From Oceaniglobus roseus (GTDB lineage: Bacteria; Pseudomonadota; Alphaproteobacteria; Rhodobacterales; Rhodobacteraceae), in assembly GCF_002869745.1 (NCBI RefSeq), contig NZ_PNOS01000021.1, positions 1-64,000 of the forward strand: a DNA stretch of 64,000 bases. The letters run 5' to 3'. Positions 37,752 through 49,920 of this stretch are shown in pieces (the stretch's first letter is position 1; each line of letters begins with the position of its first letter). The notes under the pieces are model-generated. The model ran no database searches and had not been told where the DNA came from. It saw nothing but the letters and a program-made list of their open reading frames with translations. Made by a program: the position numbers and the translations under genes.

Positions 37752-38969
37752 ATGACCGACAAGATTGCCGTACGATTTCTCGACCGTACCACGCCCCCGC
37801 ACATCTCGACCCTGATCCTGCTCGCGGGCATCTCGGCGCTGGCGATGAACATGTTCCTGCCCTCGCTGCCGGGGATGACCGCCTATTTCGGCACCGACTA
37901 CGCCACCATGCAGCTGTCGGTCGCCTTCTACCTTGCCGGCAACGCGGTGCTGCAACTGTTCATCGGTCCCGTCTCCGACCGCTACGGCCGCCGCCCGGTG
38001 ATCCTGTTCGGCGGCGCCGTCTTCATCGCCGCCTCGCTCGCCTGCATCTTCGCCCCCACCGTCGAGATCTTCCTCGCGCTGCGGGTCGTGCAGGCCATCG
38101 TCATCTCGGGCCTCGTCCTCAGCCGCGCGGTGGTGCGCGACATGTTCCCCCAGGACCAGGCCGCCTCGATGATCGGCTACGTCACCATGGGCATGGCCGT
38201 CGCGCCGATGATCGCCCCCGCCGTCGGCGGCGCGCTCGACGCGCTCTACGGCTGGAAGGCGACCTTCCTGGTCCTCGCCCTGCTCGGCATCCTTGTGCAG
38301 GTCATCGTCTGGCGGGACCTCGGCGAGACCGCCGTCAGCCGCGCGGGCAGCTTCGCCGACCAGCTGCGCGAATACCCCGAGCTCCTTGGCTCGCGTCGCT
38401 TCTGGGGCTACTGCCTGTCGGCCGCCTTCACCTCGGGCGCCTTCTTCGCCTACCTCGGCGGCGCGCCCTATGTCGGAACCGAGGTCTACGGCATGTCGCC
38501 CTCCACCCTCGGGCTGTTCTTCGGCGCGCCCGCCATCGGCTACATGGCCGGGAACTTCATCACCGGCCGCTACTCGGTGCGTTTCGGGATCAACGCGATG
38601 ATCGTCTGGGGCTCGTCGCTTTCGGCCTTCGGGCTGATGACCTCGCTGCTGATCGCGCTTCTCGGCCTCAGCGGGCCCTTCACCTTCTTCGGCTTCATGA
38701 TCTTCGTCGGTCTCGGCAACGGCATGGTGCTGCCGAACGCCACCTCCGGCATGCTCTCCGTCCGCCCGCGCCTCGCCGGTTCGGCCTCGGGCCTCGGCGG
38801 CGCGATCATGATCGGCGGCGGGGCCGCGCTGTCGGTGCTGGCGGGCCACCTGCTGACCGCGGGGACCGGCGCCGCGCCGCTCCTGTGGCTGATGTCGATC
38901 ACCTCGGCCCTCTCCATGGTCAGCGCGCTTTACACCGTGCGCCGCGACCGGGCGATGACCGCCGCCTGA
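37752..38969 (+). CDS. Bcr/CflA-type MFS multidrug transporter
   Basis: A 405-residue 12-helix major facilitator protein. The signature blocks are LPSLPGMTAYFGTDYATMQL, the loop 2-3 motif GPVSDRYGRRPVILFG, and LRVVQAIVISGLVLSRAVVRD typical of Bcr/CflA efflux pumps. Substrates in this family include sulfonamides, bicyclomycin and cysteine. The gene stands alone 55 bases after the interrupted DUF486 gene and just before pccR. Confidence 0.92.
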   Translation: MTDKIAVRFLDRTTPPHISTLILLAGISALAMNMFLPSLPGMTAYFGTDYATMQLSVAFYLAGNAVLQLFIGPVSDRYGRRPVILFGGAVFIAASLACIFAPTVEIFLALRVVQAIVISGLVLSRAVVRDMFPQDQAASMIGYVTMGMAVAPMIAPAVGGALDALYGWKATFLVLALLGILVQVIVWRDLGETAVSRAGSFADQLREYPELLGSRRFWGYCLSAAFTSGAFFAYLGGAPYVGTEVYGMSPSTLGLFFGAPAIGYMAGNFITGRYSVRFGINAMIVWGSSLSAFGLMTSLLIALLGLSGPFTFFGFMIFVGLGNGMVLPNATSGMLSVRPRLAGSASGLGGAIMIGGGAALSVLAGHLLTAGTGAAPLLWLMSITSALSMVSALYTVRRDRAMTAA

Positions 38970-38994
38970 GCCTGCGCGGACTTGCGCGGCGAAG

Positions 38995-39022
38995 TTTGCA
39001 AAGCTAGCCTCGCGCCTGCAAA
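38995..39022. promoter_or_regulatory. PccR-type motif upstream of pccR
   Basis: A perfect TTTGCAAA at 38995-39002 and a partial CCTGCAAA at 39015-39022 lie directly before the GTG start of pccR (39035). The spacing of 12 bases differs from the N4 arrangement at pccB, so this may be a weaker autoregulatory site. Confidence 0.6.
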
Positions 39023-39034
39023 CCGGGGGGCATC

Positions 39035-40420
39035 GTGGCGCAGCAGAAACTCTACGCGGGCCAGAAGCTGCGCGAGATCCGCACCCGCCTCGCCCTGACC
39101 CAGAAGGCCTTTGCCGAGAAGCTGCAGGTCTCCCTGCCCTACCTGAACCAGATGGAGAACAACCACCGTCCGGTCTCGACCGGCGTCGTGCTCTCGCTGG
39201 CGTCCGAATTCGGCTACGATGTCACCGAGCTGTCGAGCGGCGACAGCGAACGGCTGGTCTCGGACATGCGCGAGGCGCTGGCCGATTCGCTCTTCGGCGA
39301 CGAGGCGCCGCCGCTCGCCGACCTGCGCCTCGCCGCGTCCAACGCCCCGGGCCTCGTCCGCGCCTTCCTCGAACTCCACCGCAGCTACCGCCAGAGCCAC
39401 GAACGCCTCGCGATCCTGGACGAAGCCCTCGGGCGCGACGGCGGCACCGTGCAGCCCAGCCCATGGGAGGAGGTGCGGGACTTCTTTCACTACAGCGACA
39501 ATTACATCGACACCGTCGATCGTGACGCCGAGAAACTTGCACGAACCGCGCAATCGAACCCTGTCGCGCTGCTCGAATCCCATGGCGTCGCCGTGACGCT
39601 CGAGGACACCGACCTGATCCGCCGGTTCGATCCCGCGGCGCGACGGCTGATCCTCTCGCGCCGTGCCCCGCCCGAAACGCGGGCGTTCCAGATGCTGCAC
39701 CAGCTGGCGCTGCTGACCCGCAACGACCTGTTCGAGGAGATCCTCGCCCGCGCCCGCTTCCACTCGCCCGAAAGCCACGCCATCGCCAAGCTCGGCCTCG
39801 CCAACTACTTCGCCGGCGCGGCGCTCATGCCCTACACGGCGTTCCTCGAAAGGGCGGCCGAGATGCGCCACGACCTCGAACGCCTGGCCGACCGCTTCGG
39901 CGCCAGCATCGAGCAGGTGGCCCACCGCCTTTCGACCCTGCAACGGCCCGGCGCCAAGGGCATCCCCTTCTTCTTCGTCCGCGTCGATCCCGCGGGCACG
40001 ATCACCAAGCGGCACTCGGCCACGCAGCTCCAGTTCGCGCGCTTCGGCGGGGCCTGCCCGCTCTGGAACGTCCACCGCGCCTTCGAGACGCCGGGACGCT
40101 TCCTGCGCCAGCTGGCCGAGACGCCGGACGGCCTGCGCTACCTCTCCCTCGCCCGCGACGTCAGCAAGTCCGGCGGCGCCTTCGACGCCCCCACCCGCCG
40201 CTTCGCCATCGCACTCGGCTGCGAGGTGAAGCATGCAGGCCAGCTGGTCTACGGCGACGGGCTCGACCTCGGCAATCCCGCGGCGTTCGAGCCCATCGGG
40301 ATCTCCTGCCGCATCTGCGAACGCCGCCACTGCCACCAGCGCGCCGTGCCGCCGCTGGAGCGCCGCCTCTCCATCGACCCGAACCGCCGCGGCGCGCTGC
40401 CCTACACGGTCGAGGGCTGA
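39035..40420 (+). CDS. pccR: Short-chain acyl-CoA-responsive transcriptional regulator PccR
   Basis: A 461-residue ScfR-family regulator. It has an XRE-type helix-turn-helix (residues about 8-65, KLREIRTRLALTQKAFAEKL), an IrrE/DUF955-like middle lacking an obvious HExxH protease motif, and the C-terminal DUF2083-type segment CRICERRHCHQRAVPPLERR. In Rhodobacter sphaeroides PccR senses propionyl-CoA and controls pcc gene expression through TTTGCAAA sites. Such sites are present here upstream of pccB and of this gene. The start is a GTG after GGGGGG. Confidence 0.9.
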   Translation: MAQQKLYAGQKLREIRTRLALTQKAFAEKLQVSLPYLNQMENNHRPVSTGVVLSLASEFGYDVTELSSGDSERLVSDMREALADSLFGDEAPPLADLRLAASNAPGLVRAFLELHRSYRQSHERLAILDEALGRDGGTVQPSPWEEVRDFFHYSDNYIDTVDRDAEKLARTAQSNPVALLESHGVAVTLEDTDLIRRFDPAARRLILSRRAPPETRAFQMLHQLALLTRNDLFEEILARARFHSPESHAIAKLGLANYFAGAALMPYTAFLERAAEMRHDLERLADRFGASIEQVAHRLSTLQRPGAKGIPFFFVRVDPAGTITKRHSATQLQFARFGGACPLWNVHRAFETPGRFLRQLAETPDGLRYLSLARDVSKSGGAFDAPTRRFAIALGCEVKHAGQLVYGDGLDLGNPAAFEPIGISCRICERRHCHQRAVPPLERRLSIDPNRRGALPYTVEG

Positions 40421-40511
40421 GCGCGGGCACCTATACCGAAGTCGGAAACCGCGGCGCTTTACCGCACGGCACATCGGCGCTACTCCTTCGCCAGAAGCAG
40501 GGAGAAAGCCC

Positions 40512-40955
40512 ATGGAACTCAGCGGCAACCGCATCATCAAGGCCGACCGTCAGACGGTCTGGCAGCACCTGAACGATCCCGAGACGCTGAAGGCCTGCAT
40601 CCCGGGCTGCGAAGAGCTGACCGGCTCGCCCGAGGAAGGCTTCGAGGCCACGGTGAAGCAGAAGATCGGCCCCGTGAAGGCGACCTTCAGGGGCGTGGTG
40701 CAACTGGTGAACGTCAACGCCCCCGAAAGCTACCGGATCGAGGGCGAGGGCAAGGGCGGCGTCGCGGGCTTCGCCAAGGGCGGCGCGAACGTGGCGCTGG
40801 CCGAGGTCGAGGAAGGCACCGAGCTGTCCTATGTCGCCGACGTCGCCGTGGGCGGCAAGCTGGCCCAGCTCGGCAACCGCCTGATCGACGGCGTGGCGCG
40901 GCGGCTCTCGGACGAGTTCTTCACCCGGTTCAAGGACAGGGTCGAGGCGGGCTGA
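40512..40955 (+). CDS. CoxG-type SRPBCC protein
   Basis: A 147-residue START/SRPBCC-fold protein of the CO dehydrogenase subunit G type (MELSGNRIIKADRQTVWQHL, DPETLKACIPGCEELTG, GEGKGGVAGFAKGGANVALA, DEFFTRFKDRVEA). CoxG proteins bind membranes or help mature molybdenum hydroxylases, but no cox or xanthine-dehydrogenase genes are nearby, so this is a stand-alone member. AGGGAGAAAG precedes the ATG. The repeat block begins 30 bases after its stop. Confidence 0.9.
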   Translation: MELSGNRIIKADRQTVWQHLNDPETLKACIPGCEELTGSPEEGFEATVKQKIGPVKATFRGVVQLVNVNAPESYRIEGEGKGGVAGFAKGGANVALAEVEEGTELSYVADVAVGGKLAQLGNRLIDGVARRLSDEFFTRFKDRVEAG

Positions 40956-40984
40956 GGGCGCACGGGCTTCAGCCATCCCCAGCT

Positions 40985-41054
40985 CAGACCGCGGGGCAGA
41001 CCCGGCGAGACATTTCGGGAGAAGTACCAGGATTTTCCCAAACTCCGCGGTCTG
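40985..41054. repeat. Inverted repeat at the left of the repeat block
   Basis: CAGACCGCGG (40985-40994) and its exact complement (41045-41054) enclose 50 bases that include CCCAAACTCCGC, the terminal motif of the 80-bp direct repeats further right. Confidence 0.7.
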
Positions 41055-41083
41055 CTGCCAACGAACACCACCGCCTCGCCCCC

Positions 41084-41163
41084 GGGGCGTTCGGGGGCTG
41101 CCCGGCGTTGCCGCCGGGCGCGACATCTCCGCGGGTGGGCGCGGAGTTTCCCAAACTCCGCTT
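41084..41163. repeat. 80-bp direct repeat, copy A
   Basis: This 80-base unit recurs 192 bases later (41276-41355) with three mismatches. Each unit holds two perfect hairpins: CCCGGCG-TTGC-CGCCGGG (41101-41118) and GCGGAGTTT-CCC-AAACTCCGC (41141-41161). No protein-like frame crosses it. Confidence 0.85.
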
Positions 41164-41205
41164 GGTGTCGCGCATCCTGATGACAACCGCTCCGCTCCGC
41201 ACATA

Positions 41206-41295
41206 GGGCAGCCCCCGACCGCGGGCGGGGGAGAAGCCCCCGCCCGTCGTGCCGGAGGCACGCCTTCGGCGTGACGGGGCGGTCGGGGGCTGCCC
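41206..41295. repeat. 16-bp inverted repeat enclosing internal hairpins
   Basis: GGGCAGCCCCCGACCG (41206-41221) and its perfect complement (41280-41295) enclose a 10-bp hairpin (41222-41246, stem CGGGCGGGGG), a 5-bp hairpin (41249-41261, GTGCC-GGA-GGCAC) and an overlapping ACGCC-TTC-GGCGT (41260-41272). The right arm overlaps copy B of the 80-bp repeat. As RNA or extruded DNA it would be a branched structure. Confidence 0.8.
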
Positions 41296-41355
41296 GGCGT
41301 TGCCGCCGGGCGCGACGTCTCCGCGGGTGCGCGCGGAGTTTCCCAAACTCCGCTT
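41276..41355. repeat. 80-bp direct repeat, copy B
   Basis: Second copy of the unit at 41084-41163, 77 of 80 bases identical. It includes the same two hairpins, the second at 41333-41353. With the inverted repeat at 41206-41295 it fills the 484-base gap between the CoxG-like gene and the DUF3329-like gene. Confidence 0.85.
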
Positions 41356-41439
41356 TCCTCAAACATCTGACGGCAGCCGCCCAAGTCCGCCCATGGGGCG
41401 GCCCGCGGCCCGGGCCCCGGCTTCGGCCGATCGACGCGA

Positions 41440-41640
41440 CTAGGTTTCGTCCGGGTCCTTCGGATCGAAAACCACGAAGAACTGGTGCACCAGCCACAGC
41501 CCCGTGCCGCCGAACAGCGCCGCCCAGAGCCAGGCACCCTGGCTGACCTCCACCAGCGCCCAGAGCAGGCAGACGGCCACCGTGACGACCCGCCGCCAGA
41601 GCGGGATGAAGAACGGCAGCTGCACGTCGAAGAACTTCAT
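41440..41640 (-). CDS. Small two-helix membrane protein, DUF3329-like
   Basis: A 66-residue protein with MKFFDVQLPFFIPLWRRV at the N terminus, two hydrophobic segments (VVTVAVCLLWALVEV and LWAALFGGTGLWLVHQFFVVF) and an acidic tail DPKDPDET. It matches my recollection of DUF3329-type proteins of Rhodobacterales. Its ATG overlaps the TGA of the hemerythrin gene (TGATG), so translation is coupled. Confidence 0.75.
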   Translation of the reverse strand: MKFFDVQLPFFIPLWRRVVTVAVCLLWALVEVSQGAWLWAALFGGTGLWLVHQFFVVFDPKDPDET

Positions 41641-42206
41641 CACCCGAGCCCGTGCTTCAGGATCACCGGCACGATCAGGTCCTCCTCGTCCTCCAGATGC
41701 CGGTCGAGGAAGGCCGAGAAGCCCGCAAGCTGCGCCCGCAGCGCCCCCGCCGGATCCTGCCCCTTGCCCTCGGGCAGGGCGCGCAGCACCGCCTCCGTCC
41801 CGCGCGCGAGGTCGTGGATATGCCCGTCGAGCGCGTGGTGATCGGCATCGAGGATCTCGAACCCGCGCTCCAGCCGCGGCTCGATCAGCCGCATCTGCGG
41901 GAAATAGTGGTGGTCCTCGATGTGGTGATGCTCGTGCAGCTGGTTCAGAAGGAAGGCGGCGTAGCGCTGTGTCTCGCGACCATAGGCCATCGCCTCGGCC
42001 TCGCCCGAGAGGAACCCCTCGGTCCCCGCCTGAAGACGGCCCAGCAGCTCGCGGAACATCAGGTGCCGCTCCATCCAGAAGCGCGTCAGCCCGTCGAACT
42101 TCGGATGCGACTCCCAGGTCGCGCGCGGCATGCTGTCGGCCAGCACGCGCAGCGCGTCCGGCAACCCCTTGCGCTGCTCCAGCGCGATGTCGGTGTTCTC
42201 TGTCAT
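41640..42206 (-). CDS. Hemerythrin domain-containing protein
   Basis: A 188-residue four-helix protein with the di-iron ligand pattern of hemerythrin-like proteins: His in SHPKFDGLTRFWMERHLMF, the cluster LHEHHHIEDHHYFPQM, DADHHALDGHIHDLA and the terminal DRHLEDEEDLIVPVI. Such proteins bind O2 or iron, or protect against NO; which applies is not evident. The two-helix membrane protein gene overlaps its end, suggesting that they work together at the membrane. Confidence 0.9.
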   Translation of the reverse strand: MTENTDIALEQRKGLPDALRVLADSMPRATWESHPKFDGLTRFWMERHLMFRELLGRLQAGTEGFLSGEAEAMAYGRETQRYAAFLLNQLHEHHHIEDHHYFPQMRLIEPRLERGFEILDADHHALDGHIHDLARGTEAVLRALPEGKGQDPAGALRAQLAGFSAFLDRHLEDEEDLIVPVILKHGLG

Positions 42207-42245
42207 GCCCTGTCAGCTAGGCGTTCCGGGGCGCCGCGTCCAGCC

Positions 42246-43904
42246 TCAGCGCTGCGCCGTGGCCCAGGCGGGGTTGATCCAGGGCTGCACGTTCTCGGCC
42301 GGCAGCGGCGTTTTCCCGAGGATGTGGTCCGAGGCCTTCTCGCCCACCATGATCGACGGCGCGTTGAGGTTGCCGTTGGTGATCCGCGGAAAGACCGAGC
42401 TGTCGGCCAGGCGCAGGCCGTCGACCCCGATCACCCGGCACTCGGGGTCGACCACCGTGCCCGGATCGTCGCGCCGCCCCATCCGCGCCGTGCCGCAGGG
42501 GTGATAGGCGCTCTCGGCGTGCTCGGCGATGAAGGCATCGATCTCCGCGTCGCTCTGCACCTGCGGCCCCGGCTGGATCTCGCCGTCGGCATAGGGCGCG
42601 AAGGCCGCCTGCGAAAAGATCTCGCGCGTCAGGCGGATGCAGGTGCGGAACTCCTCCCAGTCGCGGTCCTCGCTCATGTAGTTGAAGCGGATCTCCGGCG
42701 CCGCCTTCGCGTCGCCCGAGCGCAGCCGCACCGTCCCCCGCGAGGTCGATCGCATGGGCCCCACATGGGCCTGGAACCCATGCCCCTGCGCGGCGGCGCG
42801 CCCGTCGTAGCGCACGGCGATCGGCAGGAAGTGGTACTGGATGTCCGGGTACTCGATCCCCGCGGCCGAGCGGACGAAGGCCGCGCTCTCGAACTGGTTG
42901 CTCGCCCCCGGCCCGGTGCCGAGAGTCAGCCACCGCGCGCCCACATAGGCCTTGCCGACGAGGTTCCAGTAGCGGAACAGCGACACCGGCAGCTTCGACT
43001 TCATCTGGACATAGACTTCGAGGTGGTCCTGGAGGTTGCCGCCCACGCCAGGGCGGTCGGCGACCACGTCGATCCCGTGCTCGGCCAGATGCTTTGCGGG
43101 CCCGATGCCCGAAAGCATCAAGAGCTTCGGCGAGTTGATCGAGGAGGCGGCGACGATCACCTCGCGCCGCGCGCCGATGACCTCCGGGCGTCCGCGCCGC
43201 AGGACGCGCACGCCCGTCGCGCGCCCCTCGGAAATCTCGATCCGCTCCGCCAGCCCGTTGACCAGCGTGCAGTTCGGACGCTTCAGCGCGGGGCGCAGAT
43301 AGGCGTTGGCGGCCGACCACCGCCGCCCCCGCCAGATCGTCGCGTCCATCGGCCCGAAGCCTTCCTGCTTCTCGCCGTTGTAATCCCCCGTCGCCTCGTA
43401 TCCCGCCTGCACCCCGGCGGCGACGAAGGCCCGCACCAGCGGATTGTCCCTCAGCCCTCGCGACACGTGCAGCGGCCCGTCGGTGCCCCGCCAGGTCGGA
43501 TCGCCGCCGTGCCCGCCGTCGTGCCAGTGCTCCATCCGCTTGAAGTAGGGCAGCACGTCGGCGAACCCCCAGCCCGACGCCCCCATATCGGCCCAGGTGT
43601 CGTAGTCGCGCGCGTGGCCGCGGACATAGACCATGCCGTTGATCGAGGACGACCCCCCCACCACCTTGCCGCGCGGCGTCGCGAGGCGGCGGTTGTTGAG
43701 CCGCGGTTCGGGTTCGCTGCGGTAGCCCCAGTCGTAGCGCGGCATGTTCATCGGGAAGGACAGCGCGCCGGGCATCTGGATGAACGGCCCGAAGTCGCTG
43801 CCCCCGTGCTCGATCACGATGACCGAGGCGCCCGCCTCCGACAGGCGATAGGCCATGGCGCAGCCCGCGCTGCCCGCGCCGACGATGACGAAATCGGCCT
43901 CCAT
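42246..43904 (-). CDS. betA: Choline dehydrogenase
   Basis: A 552-residue FAD-dependent GMC oxidoreductase that oxidises choline to betaine aldehyde. The FAD loop is [20 protein letters not shown], followed by [20 protein letters not shown], and the active-site region at the C terminus is [11 protein letters not shown], with later [18 protein letters not shown]. It starts 1 base after the betB stop and is the last gene of the betI-betC-betB-betA operon. Confidence 0.95.
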
Positions 43905-49037: not shown

Positions 49038-49074
49038 GACCGTCGGGGTTCGGTGCGCATCGCCTTGGGTGTCT

Positions 49075-49096
49075 GGCCCGGCGGCACCGCCGGGCC
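49075..49096. terminator. Hairpin between convergent thpR and hydrolase genes
   Basis: GGCCCGGCG (49075-49083), a GCAC loop and CGCCGGGCC (49088-49096) form a perfect 9-bp stem between two convergent genes. No T-run follows, so it is a stem-loop of terminator position rather than a canonical terminator. Confidence 0.45.
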
Positions 49097-49146
49097 GCGC
49101 CCGTCCGCGGCTCCGCACAGAGCGGGAAGCCCGCCCCGCGCAGCCC

Positions 49147-49920
49147 TCACGCAGGCGCCGTGTCCCCGTACCACGCGCCGAACTTCACCTCGGTCTCCGC
49201 GTCCGTCTCGCCCAGCAGCCGGGCGAACTCCTCGGGATCGCTGTCGCGGTAGTGGTAGGGATAGACGAAGGTCGGCGCGAACTCGGCCACCGCGTCGGCC
49301 GCCTGGGTCACGTCCATGGTGTAGGGCAGGTTCATCGGCACGAAGGCGAGGTCGATGTCGGTCAGCGCCCGCATCTCCGGCGTGCCCTCGGTGTCGCCCG
49401 CGATATAGACCCGCATCCCGTCGATGGTCAGGATATAGCCGTTGTCGCGCCCCTCGGGGTGATACTTCTGCCGGTCCTCGGTGATGTTGTAGGCGGGGAT
49501 CGCCTCGATGGAATATCCCAAGGCCTCGGTCGACTCGCCGTTGGCCAGCTTCTCGGCCTTCGCCTGCAGCGCCTCGGGCAGCATGTCGTAGACGGCGGGG
49601 TTCGTCACCAGCCGCGTCTCGGCCGCCATGATCCCCTCCAGCGTCGGGACGTCGTAGTGATCGCCGTGCTCGTGGGTGATGAGGATCAGGTCGGGCTTCG
49701 GCAGGTCGGCATAGGCCTCGGCCCCGCCCACCGGATCGTTGTAGATCACGCCGTTCGGCGTCTCCATCACGAACGAGGCGTGGTCCACGGGATGCACGGC
49801 GATCTCGCCGCTGGCGGTCTTGAACATGTCGCCTCCGGAATGGGCCGCGGCATGGGCGGCGTAGGGCAGGACGGTGATGGCGGCGGTGCCGGTGGCCAGG
49901 AAGCTGCGTCGCGTGTACAT
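49147..49920 (-). CDS. Tat-exported metallo-beta-lactamase-fold hydrolase
   Basis: A 257-residue protein with a twin-arginine signal (YTRRSFLATGTAAITV) and an MBL fold of the UlaG-like beta-lactamase_3 type: VDHASFVMETPNG, the metal motif THEHGDHYD, GYILTIDGMRVYIAGDTEG and the final PYHYRDSD. Substrate unknown. It is transcribed against the cho genes and splits choX-thpR from choW-choV. GAGGAG precedes the ATG. Confidence 0.88.
   Translation of the reverse strand: MYTRRSFLATGTAAITVLPYAAHAAAHSGGDMFKTASGEIAVHPVDHASFVMETPNGVIYNDPVGGAEAYADLPKPDLILITHEHGDHYDVPTLEGIMAAETRLVTNPAVYDMLPEALQAKAEKLANGESTEALGYSIEAIPAYNITEDRQKYHPEGRDNGYILTIDGMRVYIAGDTEGTPEMRALTDIDLAFVPMNLPYTMDVTQAADAVAEFAPTFVYPYHYRDSDPEEFARLLGETDAETEVKFGAWYGDTAPA

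Follow-up and report, generated by a model that had tools for sequence, protein, structure and literature searches.

The BIMEs of enterobacteria are mosaic, tandem arrangements of palindromic modules that lie behind genes and bind gyrase, IHF or Pol I. In Alphaproteobacteria, the CGTC-tagged REPs are described, in the portions of the source considered here, as located behind genes, devoid of a dedicated transposase and with intragenic copies that include one in R. conorii dnaE (Di Nocera et al. 2013, PMC3733652). The same portions report CGTC families in all alphaproteobacterial orders, and a Rhodobacterales family may thus be among its figures; in the main text, to the same extent, none of the six names that we looked for is present (PMC3733652). 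In Rickettsia, palindromic elements (RPE) are described, in the parts of the papers used here, as in-frame palindromes within proteins (PMC10969869, PMC2229807). A literature search, judged by titles and abstract beginnings, returned no description of the element reported here. It was found at positions 40985-41355 of a window from Oceaniglobus roseus (the window being the whole stretch of 64,000 nucleotides that was analysed; the species is hereafter the host). Our interpretation, to which we give a probability of about three in four, is that one full copy and two partial ones of a new non-autonomous, REP/RPE-like palindromic element of Rhodobacteraceae make up this block as a tandem cluster.

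Two convergent genes separated by a 484-bp gap enclose the block, which takes up most of that gap (Table 1), and the minus-strand genes beyond the small flanking ORF are a hemerythrin-domain gene followed by genes for a GMC oxidoreductase, an aldehyde dehydrogenase and a choline-sulfatase-like protein. Its backbone is a pair of direct repeats (41083-41163 and 41275-41355) spaced by 192 nt; an earlier note on this DNA had seen the repeats and their spacing, and its 80 bp with 77 identities are corrected here to 81 nt with 78. Each repeat carries the two perfect hairpins that had been announced, GCCCGGCG-TTGC-CGCCGGGC and the palindrome GCGGAGTTT-CCC-AAACTCCGC (in full, GCGGAGTTTCCCAAACTCCGC). 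The inverted repeat first given as perfect over 16 bp is indeed perfect and extends to 17 bp, and, as proposed, it encloses hairpins (two of them) and overlaps the second direct repeat through its right arm. The 10-bp inverted repeat CAGACCGCGG at the left (40985-40994 and 41045-41054), equally recognised before, surrounds a degraded third right-end copy (41001-41048), and identity among the three right-end copies is 71-73%. The view that the block is non-coding holds as well, the 120-aa minus-strand ORF spanning it having no match in a Pfam search. These repeats exceed chance, because RNA folding of 40985-41360 (z = -5.9, 0 of 100 shuffles as good), DNA folding of 41192-41360 (z = -6.4, 0 of 200 shuffles as good) and 50 genome-wide matches at E <= 0.001 all stand out. 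RNAalifold also returns an alternative pairing, AGCGCCC with GGGCGCT, in place of the outer stem, and both folds are kept as possible.

Table 1. Features of the block and its surroundings (positions in the window)
Feature	Position	Strand	Remark
Left 10-bp inverted repeat and degraded third right-end module	40985..41054	.	sequence repeats
Copy A: right half of element and terminal palindrome (first direct repeat)	41083..41163	+	weak R1 match 41051-41124, E 8.9e-4
Copy A hairpin 3, GCCCGGCG-TTGC-CGCCGGGC	41100..41119	+	
Copy A terminal palindrome, GCGGAGTTT-CCC-AAACTCCGC	41141..41161	.	
Copy B: complete core element, two-hairpin form	41205..41316	+	R1 match 64.3 bits, E 9.9e-10
Outer 17-bp stem, left arm	41206..41222	+	
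Hairpin 1, GGGCGGGGG-AGAAG-CCCCCGCCC	41223..41245	+	
Hairpin 2, optional module	41245..41276	+	in a subset of copies
Outer 17-bp stem, right arm	41279..41295	+	
Copy B hairpin 3	41292..41311	+	GCCC common to hairpin 3 and outer-stem right arm
Host-lineage extension	41312..41332	+	host-genome consensus GAGACATCTCCGCGGGTG
Copy B terminal palindrome	41333..41353	.	17-nt pattern host-only among 25 genomes
Flanking gene, CoxG-like	40512..40955	+	
Flanking convergent small ORF	41440..41643	-	then hemerythrin-domain gene 41640-42206 (-)
Degenerate second element copy, between convergent genes	49071..49147	-	371-nt query E 2.1e-4; R1 E 0.026

With the 371-nt block as query, the 4.41-Mb host genome yielded at least 50 matches at E <= 0.001, a lower bound for the copy number, as 40 of 136 host candidates were scored in that search. 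When the last hairpin serves as anchor, the matches in the fetched host loci fall at 42 places, one of which is the reverse reading of another, leaving at least 41 copies; by a purpose-written gene caller and as judged by the anchor base, all 41 lie outside called genes. The host unit comprises, from left to right, a left piece CCGCTCCGCACAAA, the outer stem, hairpin 1, hairpin 2 where present, hairpin 3 and GAGACATCTCCGCGGGTG; some copies carry the terminal palindrome in addition. The element has a modular build, an outer stem with one or two hairpins inside it being followed by an 8-bp hairpin, and is dispersed at many unrelated sites. The count of copies that the earlier note had proposed thus gives at least 41 in the host, with further copies in relatives, and contradicts what that note had named as refuting its view, a unit unique to this site and without conserved structure. 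Besides, a 1.4-kb host gap without called genes (L055:664-2080), partly A+T-rich, adjoins a copy and is possibly acquired DNA. In seven loci (L057, L060, L083, L095, L115, L126 and L147), the left part differs and, by eye, an inner stem of the GGAGGGCG...CGCCCTCC type seems to enclose tens of unrelated bases, possibly a long-loop form.

A DNA search gave matches, some of them weak, in 14 of 41 genomes, host included, all belonging to the host's family. The core spans about 85 nt, and a covariance model of it (R1, built from the 58-copy alignment A1) matches 35 of 61 family genomes, host included, with at least 23 matches in the host, the most of any genome; at most 74 candidates were scored per genome, so that these counts are minima. 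Among 56 genomes outside the family, a single one matches R1, weakly (E 4.8e-4). An exact-core scan of species genomes returned 71 copies in 70 stretches of named records, titled as Rhodobacteraceae, Rhodobacterales or Paracoccaceae, as genera that we take to belong to these groups, or as alphaproteobacterial MAGs. These 71 named copies were found by an exact 3' core, and a list of 65 copies required a near-exact left start as well; A1 retains 58 of the 65, seven being omitted for odd length or a broken left half, and its conservation in the 3' arm and in columns 1-7 is partly by construction, because these parts were required in the search. Plasmids of Leisingera, Phaeobacter, Pseudosulfitobacter and others match the element wholly or partly. 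A phage origin was rejected, positions 41192-41355 having no match in 50,697 phage records. A widespread palindromic repeat family is thereby added for a large group of mostly marine bacteria.

The 41 host copies lie between convergent genes in 22 cases, between tandem genes in 18 (10 on the strand of the genes, 8 opposite) and between divergent genes in one. According to a purpose-written gene caller applied to 164 kb of the host, window included, convergent gaps represent 17 of 110 background gaps and 7 of the 51 that reach 100 bp, and 17 of these 51 are divergent. Among the 71 named copies, 47 are tandem, 7 convergent and 1 divergent, while 12 fall within a called ORF and 4 at an edge. The corresponding numbers are 35, 15, 4, 6 and 1 for 61 further copies, which were our choice among the R1 matches listed, mostly better-scoring ones, with at least one also in the named set (the L316 region is L093). 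The named copies avoid divergent gaps (p 0.0003), an effect that is not significant in the 61-copy sample (4/54, p 0.21). The element is mostly intergenic and, in the host as well as among the named copies, seldom lies between divergent genes; it can also sit in frame within proteins.

The position of the host copies could mean that they are bidirectional devices for transcript 3' ends, whose hairpins at converging gene ends stop RNA polymerase or protect both mRNAs and which are kept and copied for that role. We regard this explanation as possible, if doubtful. The 22 convergent copies of 41 exceed the background of 7 gaps in 51, and some copies occupy the same site across genera. The host-specific terminal palindrome points the same way: in the fetched host loci, its slightly wider form makes up 18 perfect dyads spread over 15 gaps (12 convergent, 3 tandem), and three gaps (L030, L045 and L050) have arms changed on both sides that give the compensated dyads GGAATTTCCCAAATTCC and GGAGTTCCCCGAACTCC. 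Another hairpin repeat, of the GAGGATATTT or GAGGATAGTTT type, in the orthologous gap of two same-genus genomes would also suit such a role. However, the stretch 40900-41500 contains no terminator-like site with a T-tract, so that an intrinsic terminator was rejected, and outside the host there is no enrichment of convergent gaps, either for the named copies (7/55, p 0.65) or in the second sample (15/54, p 0.56). In addition, in-frame copies within proteins cannot be terminators, and mobile elements that avoid promoters yield much of the same pattern.

The palindrome itself has a 17-nt pattern, GGAGTTTNNNAAACTCC, present at 14 exact sites in the host versus none for the reversed control; an exact search found no site in 24 other genomes, five of the same genus. 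With its perfect dyad symmetry around a 3-bp centre, GGAGTTTNNNAAACTCC is a candidate dimer site, and the block might be a sequence-specific protein-binding locus that acts as a roadblock or recruits a nucleoid protein or gyrase, in the manner described for BIMEs. We consider this unlikely, as the compensated arm variation in three gaps favours a hairpin over a fixed site. A further scenario, speculative and of low probability in our estimate, is that the host lineage has added GGAGTTTNNNAAACTCC to a selfish element, that this dyad ends transcripts in both directions without a T-tract (as a hairpin or as a roadblock), and that the element is now spreading it to convergent-gene junctions, i.e. 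a mobile bidirectional 3'-end signal in the making. As the palindrome is specific to the host and sits where genes converge, a two-way role at 3' ends can be tested directly.

The earlier note had also raised the option of a structured RNA, for instance a strand-specific Y-shaped molecule with alternative hairpin pairing that works as an sRNA or cis-regulator. Such a molecule would agree with the RNA folding score of the block (z -5.9), with a G-C/C-G swap (34/23) at one pair, and with imperfect stem pairs in which G-T far outnumbers A-C (44 versus 2 in the outer stem, 49 versus 7 in the inner one), an excess that could reflect selection on one strand as RNA, in a sampling that favoured a fixed 3' arm and 5' start. 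Strand tells against it: of the tandem copies in all three sets, 45 have the same orientation as the genes and 55 the opposite one (p 0.37), which amounts to no preference. Moreover, only 1 of 17 pairs is changed on both sides in RNAalifold, and the plus-minus folding difference equals that of mononucleotide shuffles, so that folding energy was discarded as evidence for a strand. A search of window positions 38900-43900 against Rfam gave no family above the gathering score, and the same search of eight other element loci gave two tRNAs only. In view of the strand counts and of the missing Rfam family, this option is not favoured, and we hold it to be very unlikely.

Turning back to a dispersed palindromic element, sites shared between copies bear on the age of the insertions. 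Both flanks are in common with another copy for 21 of the 71 named copies (8 groups, often across genera), and at least one same-side flank for 26 (9 groups); once the both-flank groups are merged, at least 58 distinct sites remain. Since 21 of 71 copies share both flanks, many insertions are old, either inherited or kept. Long retention at common sites could alternatively mean selection. The flank-sharing groups (that of L102, L120, L132 and L135, and seven other groups) correspond to the same site in different genera or species and would be useful for dating insertions or testing selection. A site-by-site comparison of two plasmids of Leisingera aquaemixtae showed the element retained by both at three sites, and replaced gap DNA or remnants at two others, but no clean empty site with an insertion boundary. 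At one of the three retained sites, one plasmid has a 25-nt deletion between AGCGCCC repeats; this deletion and the QueE copy reduced to its 3' part in a second Roseovarius (see below) show decay of the element. In the syntenic gap of three same-genus genomes, which measures about 90 bp, about 105 bp and nearly nil, the block is absent and R1 finds no match, two further same-genus genomes being without downstream synteny in the fetched stretch. In the gaps of about 90 and 105 bp lies the other hairpin repeat mentioned above, ending in GAGGATATTT or GAGGATAGTTT.

A second repeat family was noticed on the side. It consists of GC-rich hairpins followed by CCCCGAGGATATTTGGAAAGCAAAGATGG or near variants and is found in the window at about 14450, 27846, 35557 and 57585 (minus), as well as in L070 and L073. 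The sequence CCCCGAGGATATTT occurs 20 times in the host, 24 times in genome G003, 8 times in G004, once in G005 and not in G001 or G002. This family fills the orthologous gap in G003, and a one-base variant is present there in G004.

The in-frame copies offer another perspective on where the element is tolerated. Out of the 12 named copies in called ORFs, five were accepted as being in frame in a recognisable protein: L099, L146 (NnrD/E), L144, L130 (QueE) and L148 (DnaE). The NnrD/E copies represent one site and the QueE copies another, as their flanks are shared. A copy in a GIY-YIG protein (L127) is doubtful because L096, which has both flanks in common with it, is not called inside a gene, and six others (L085, L092, L113, L145, L139 and L082) were rejected, as they look like start-site, spurious-ORF or truncated cases. 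In the second sample, one of six called-ORF copies was accepted (L287, acetate kinase). In NnrD/NnrE of a Pseudophaeobacter MAG and of a Maritimibacter, the element separates the YjeF_N domain from the Carb_kinase domain and lies in a linker that varies in other species. For QueE, the whole element is present in a Roseovarius MAG, its 3' part only in R. autotrophicus, and none in four orthologs; in the alignment with the solved enzyme 5tgs, 36 residues (146-181) stand against 6. The predicted QueE model, of low overall confidence (mean pLDDT 65, 2 sequences), gives pLDDT < 50 to the element-coded residues 151-182 and to other short stretches too. The DnaE of strain CCMM004 accommodates two elements in opposite orientation, with 99 residues (388-486) opposite 4 of 5fku, which we take to be the E. 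coli DnaE enzyme. Finally, the acetate kinase copy is in frame, and its element-coded stretch aligns over a variable region without large net insertion.

In-frame inserts in conserved enzymes, including the alpha subunit of DNA polymerase III, are thereby seen outside Rickettsia, and one and the same protein occurs naturally both with the insert and without it, which allows the neutrality of the element to be tested. In the acetate kinase copy (L287:1402-1486), GGGC/GCCC/GGGC is jointly changed to GGAC/GTCC/GGAC, so that the outer stem and hairpin 3 both stay paired; these two folds, which have an arm in common, may exchange with each other. Other in-frame inserts (L256, L257 and L258) were observed in three genomes at one NnrD site, around residue 364 of the query, with different-looking repeats such as CPPPPTPPHKGEG...LPLPLVGRGQGRG, and inserts may be tolerated particularly often in NnrD.

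The transposase family searched, Y1_Tnp (PF01797), has no match in the host genome and is absent from 13 of the 14 genomes with DNA matches, the remaining one having five partial matches; in the control, PF01797 matched 5 of 14 genomes. A search for a RAYT-type transposase gene, as the earlier note had advised, thus found none in the host and partial matches in one of 14 matching genomes. A REPIN mobilised by RAYT in the strict sense would account for REP-like inverted pairs that are intergenic and clustered, but it is largely refuted by these results and by the 71 named copies, which lack CTAC close to their right end, and we see it as extremely improbable. Flanking direct repeats of 65 copies are no better than the control, and a MITE with target-site duplication was rejected on the same ground. 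The absence of target duplications fits a single-strand mechanism, without proving one. Since neither target duplications above the control nor a clean empty site were found, transposition is deduced from dispersal alone. The REP/BIME-like mobile unit suggested at the outset is accordingly upheld for architecture, copy number and position, and not for RAYT.

We propose that, in the past, a trans-acting enzyme that worked on a folded single strand spread the copies and left no target duplication. The copies would persist where insertion is harmless, i.e. behind genes and in protein linkers or loops, some probably long enough to become common to several genera, and would decay by deletion between internal repeats. 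In this host, the family has gained an additional terminal palindrome. Where transcripts converge, hairpins at their 3' ends can arise in both of them and might obstruct exonucleases or readthrough, presumably as a side effect and not as the reason for the existence of the element.

How does the element compare with the known palindromic repeats? Like the REPINs associated with RAYTs, in the portions of the source considered here (Bertels and Rainey 2011, PMC3116915), it forms inverted palindromic pairs that are dispersed, intergenic and clustered, but no RAYT was found and the right end has no GTAG tag; neither the 71 named copies nor 32 host copies show this tag (CTAC on the other strand) in the vicinity of their right end. 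Like the CGTC REPs, as far as they are described in the portions of the source considered, the element is palindromic, with the same 8-bp stem and 4-nt loop in hairpin 3, occurs mostly in convergent or unidirectional gaps, has no dedicated transposase by the PF01797 search and has intragenic copies. It differs from them, with the same restriction on the source, by a CGTC-type right-end tag that is patchy and not conserved, by the absence of an A-T stem start and by its longer, compound structure. Hairpin 3 (8 bp, 4 nt) falls within the 8-9 bp stem and 4-5 nt loop of CGTC REPs, whereas GCCCGGCG/CGCCGGGC does not have A-T pairs at stem positions one and two. Right-end tags, a few bases from the stem where present, are GACG in 11%, GACA in 4% and GAGG in 6% of the 71 named copies; among 32 host sequences, these values are 9%, 47% and 6%, respectively.

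The likeness to RPE, compared by description and within the parts of the sources used, resides in palindromes of about 100-150 bp that are intergenic and also in frame inside conserved proteins; the differences are the Rhodobacteraceae hosts and the intergenic location of most copies (none of the 41 in the host is intragenic). As in RPE-like elements, some copies are inserted in frame into conserved proteins where this is tolerated, with none of the host's 41 copies among the cases. With BIMEs, likened by description, the element has in common the mosaic tandem arrangement of palindromic modules behind genes. In the broad REP-like sense, many palindromic copies located mainly at convergent or tandem genes were found (at least 41 in the host, 71 named and 61 further ones). 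Because the right end has no GTAG, the CGTC-type tag is patchy, the stem does not start with A-T pairs and the structure is longer and compound, we file the element as a new family of this broad REP-like kind, set apart from CGTC REPs and REPINs by their descriptions.
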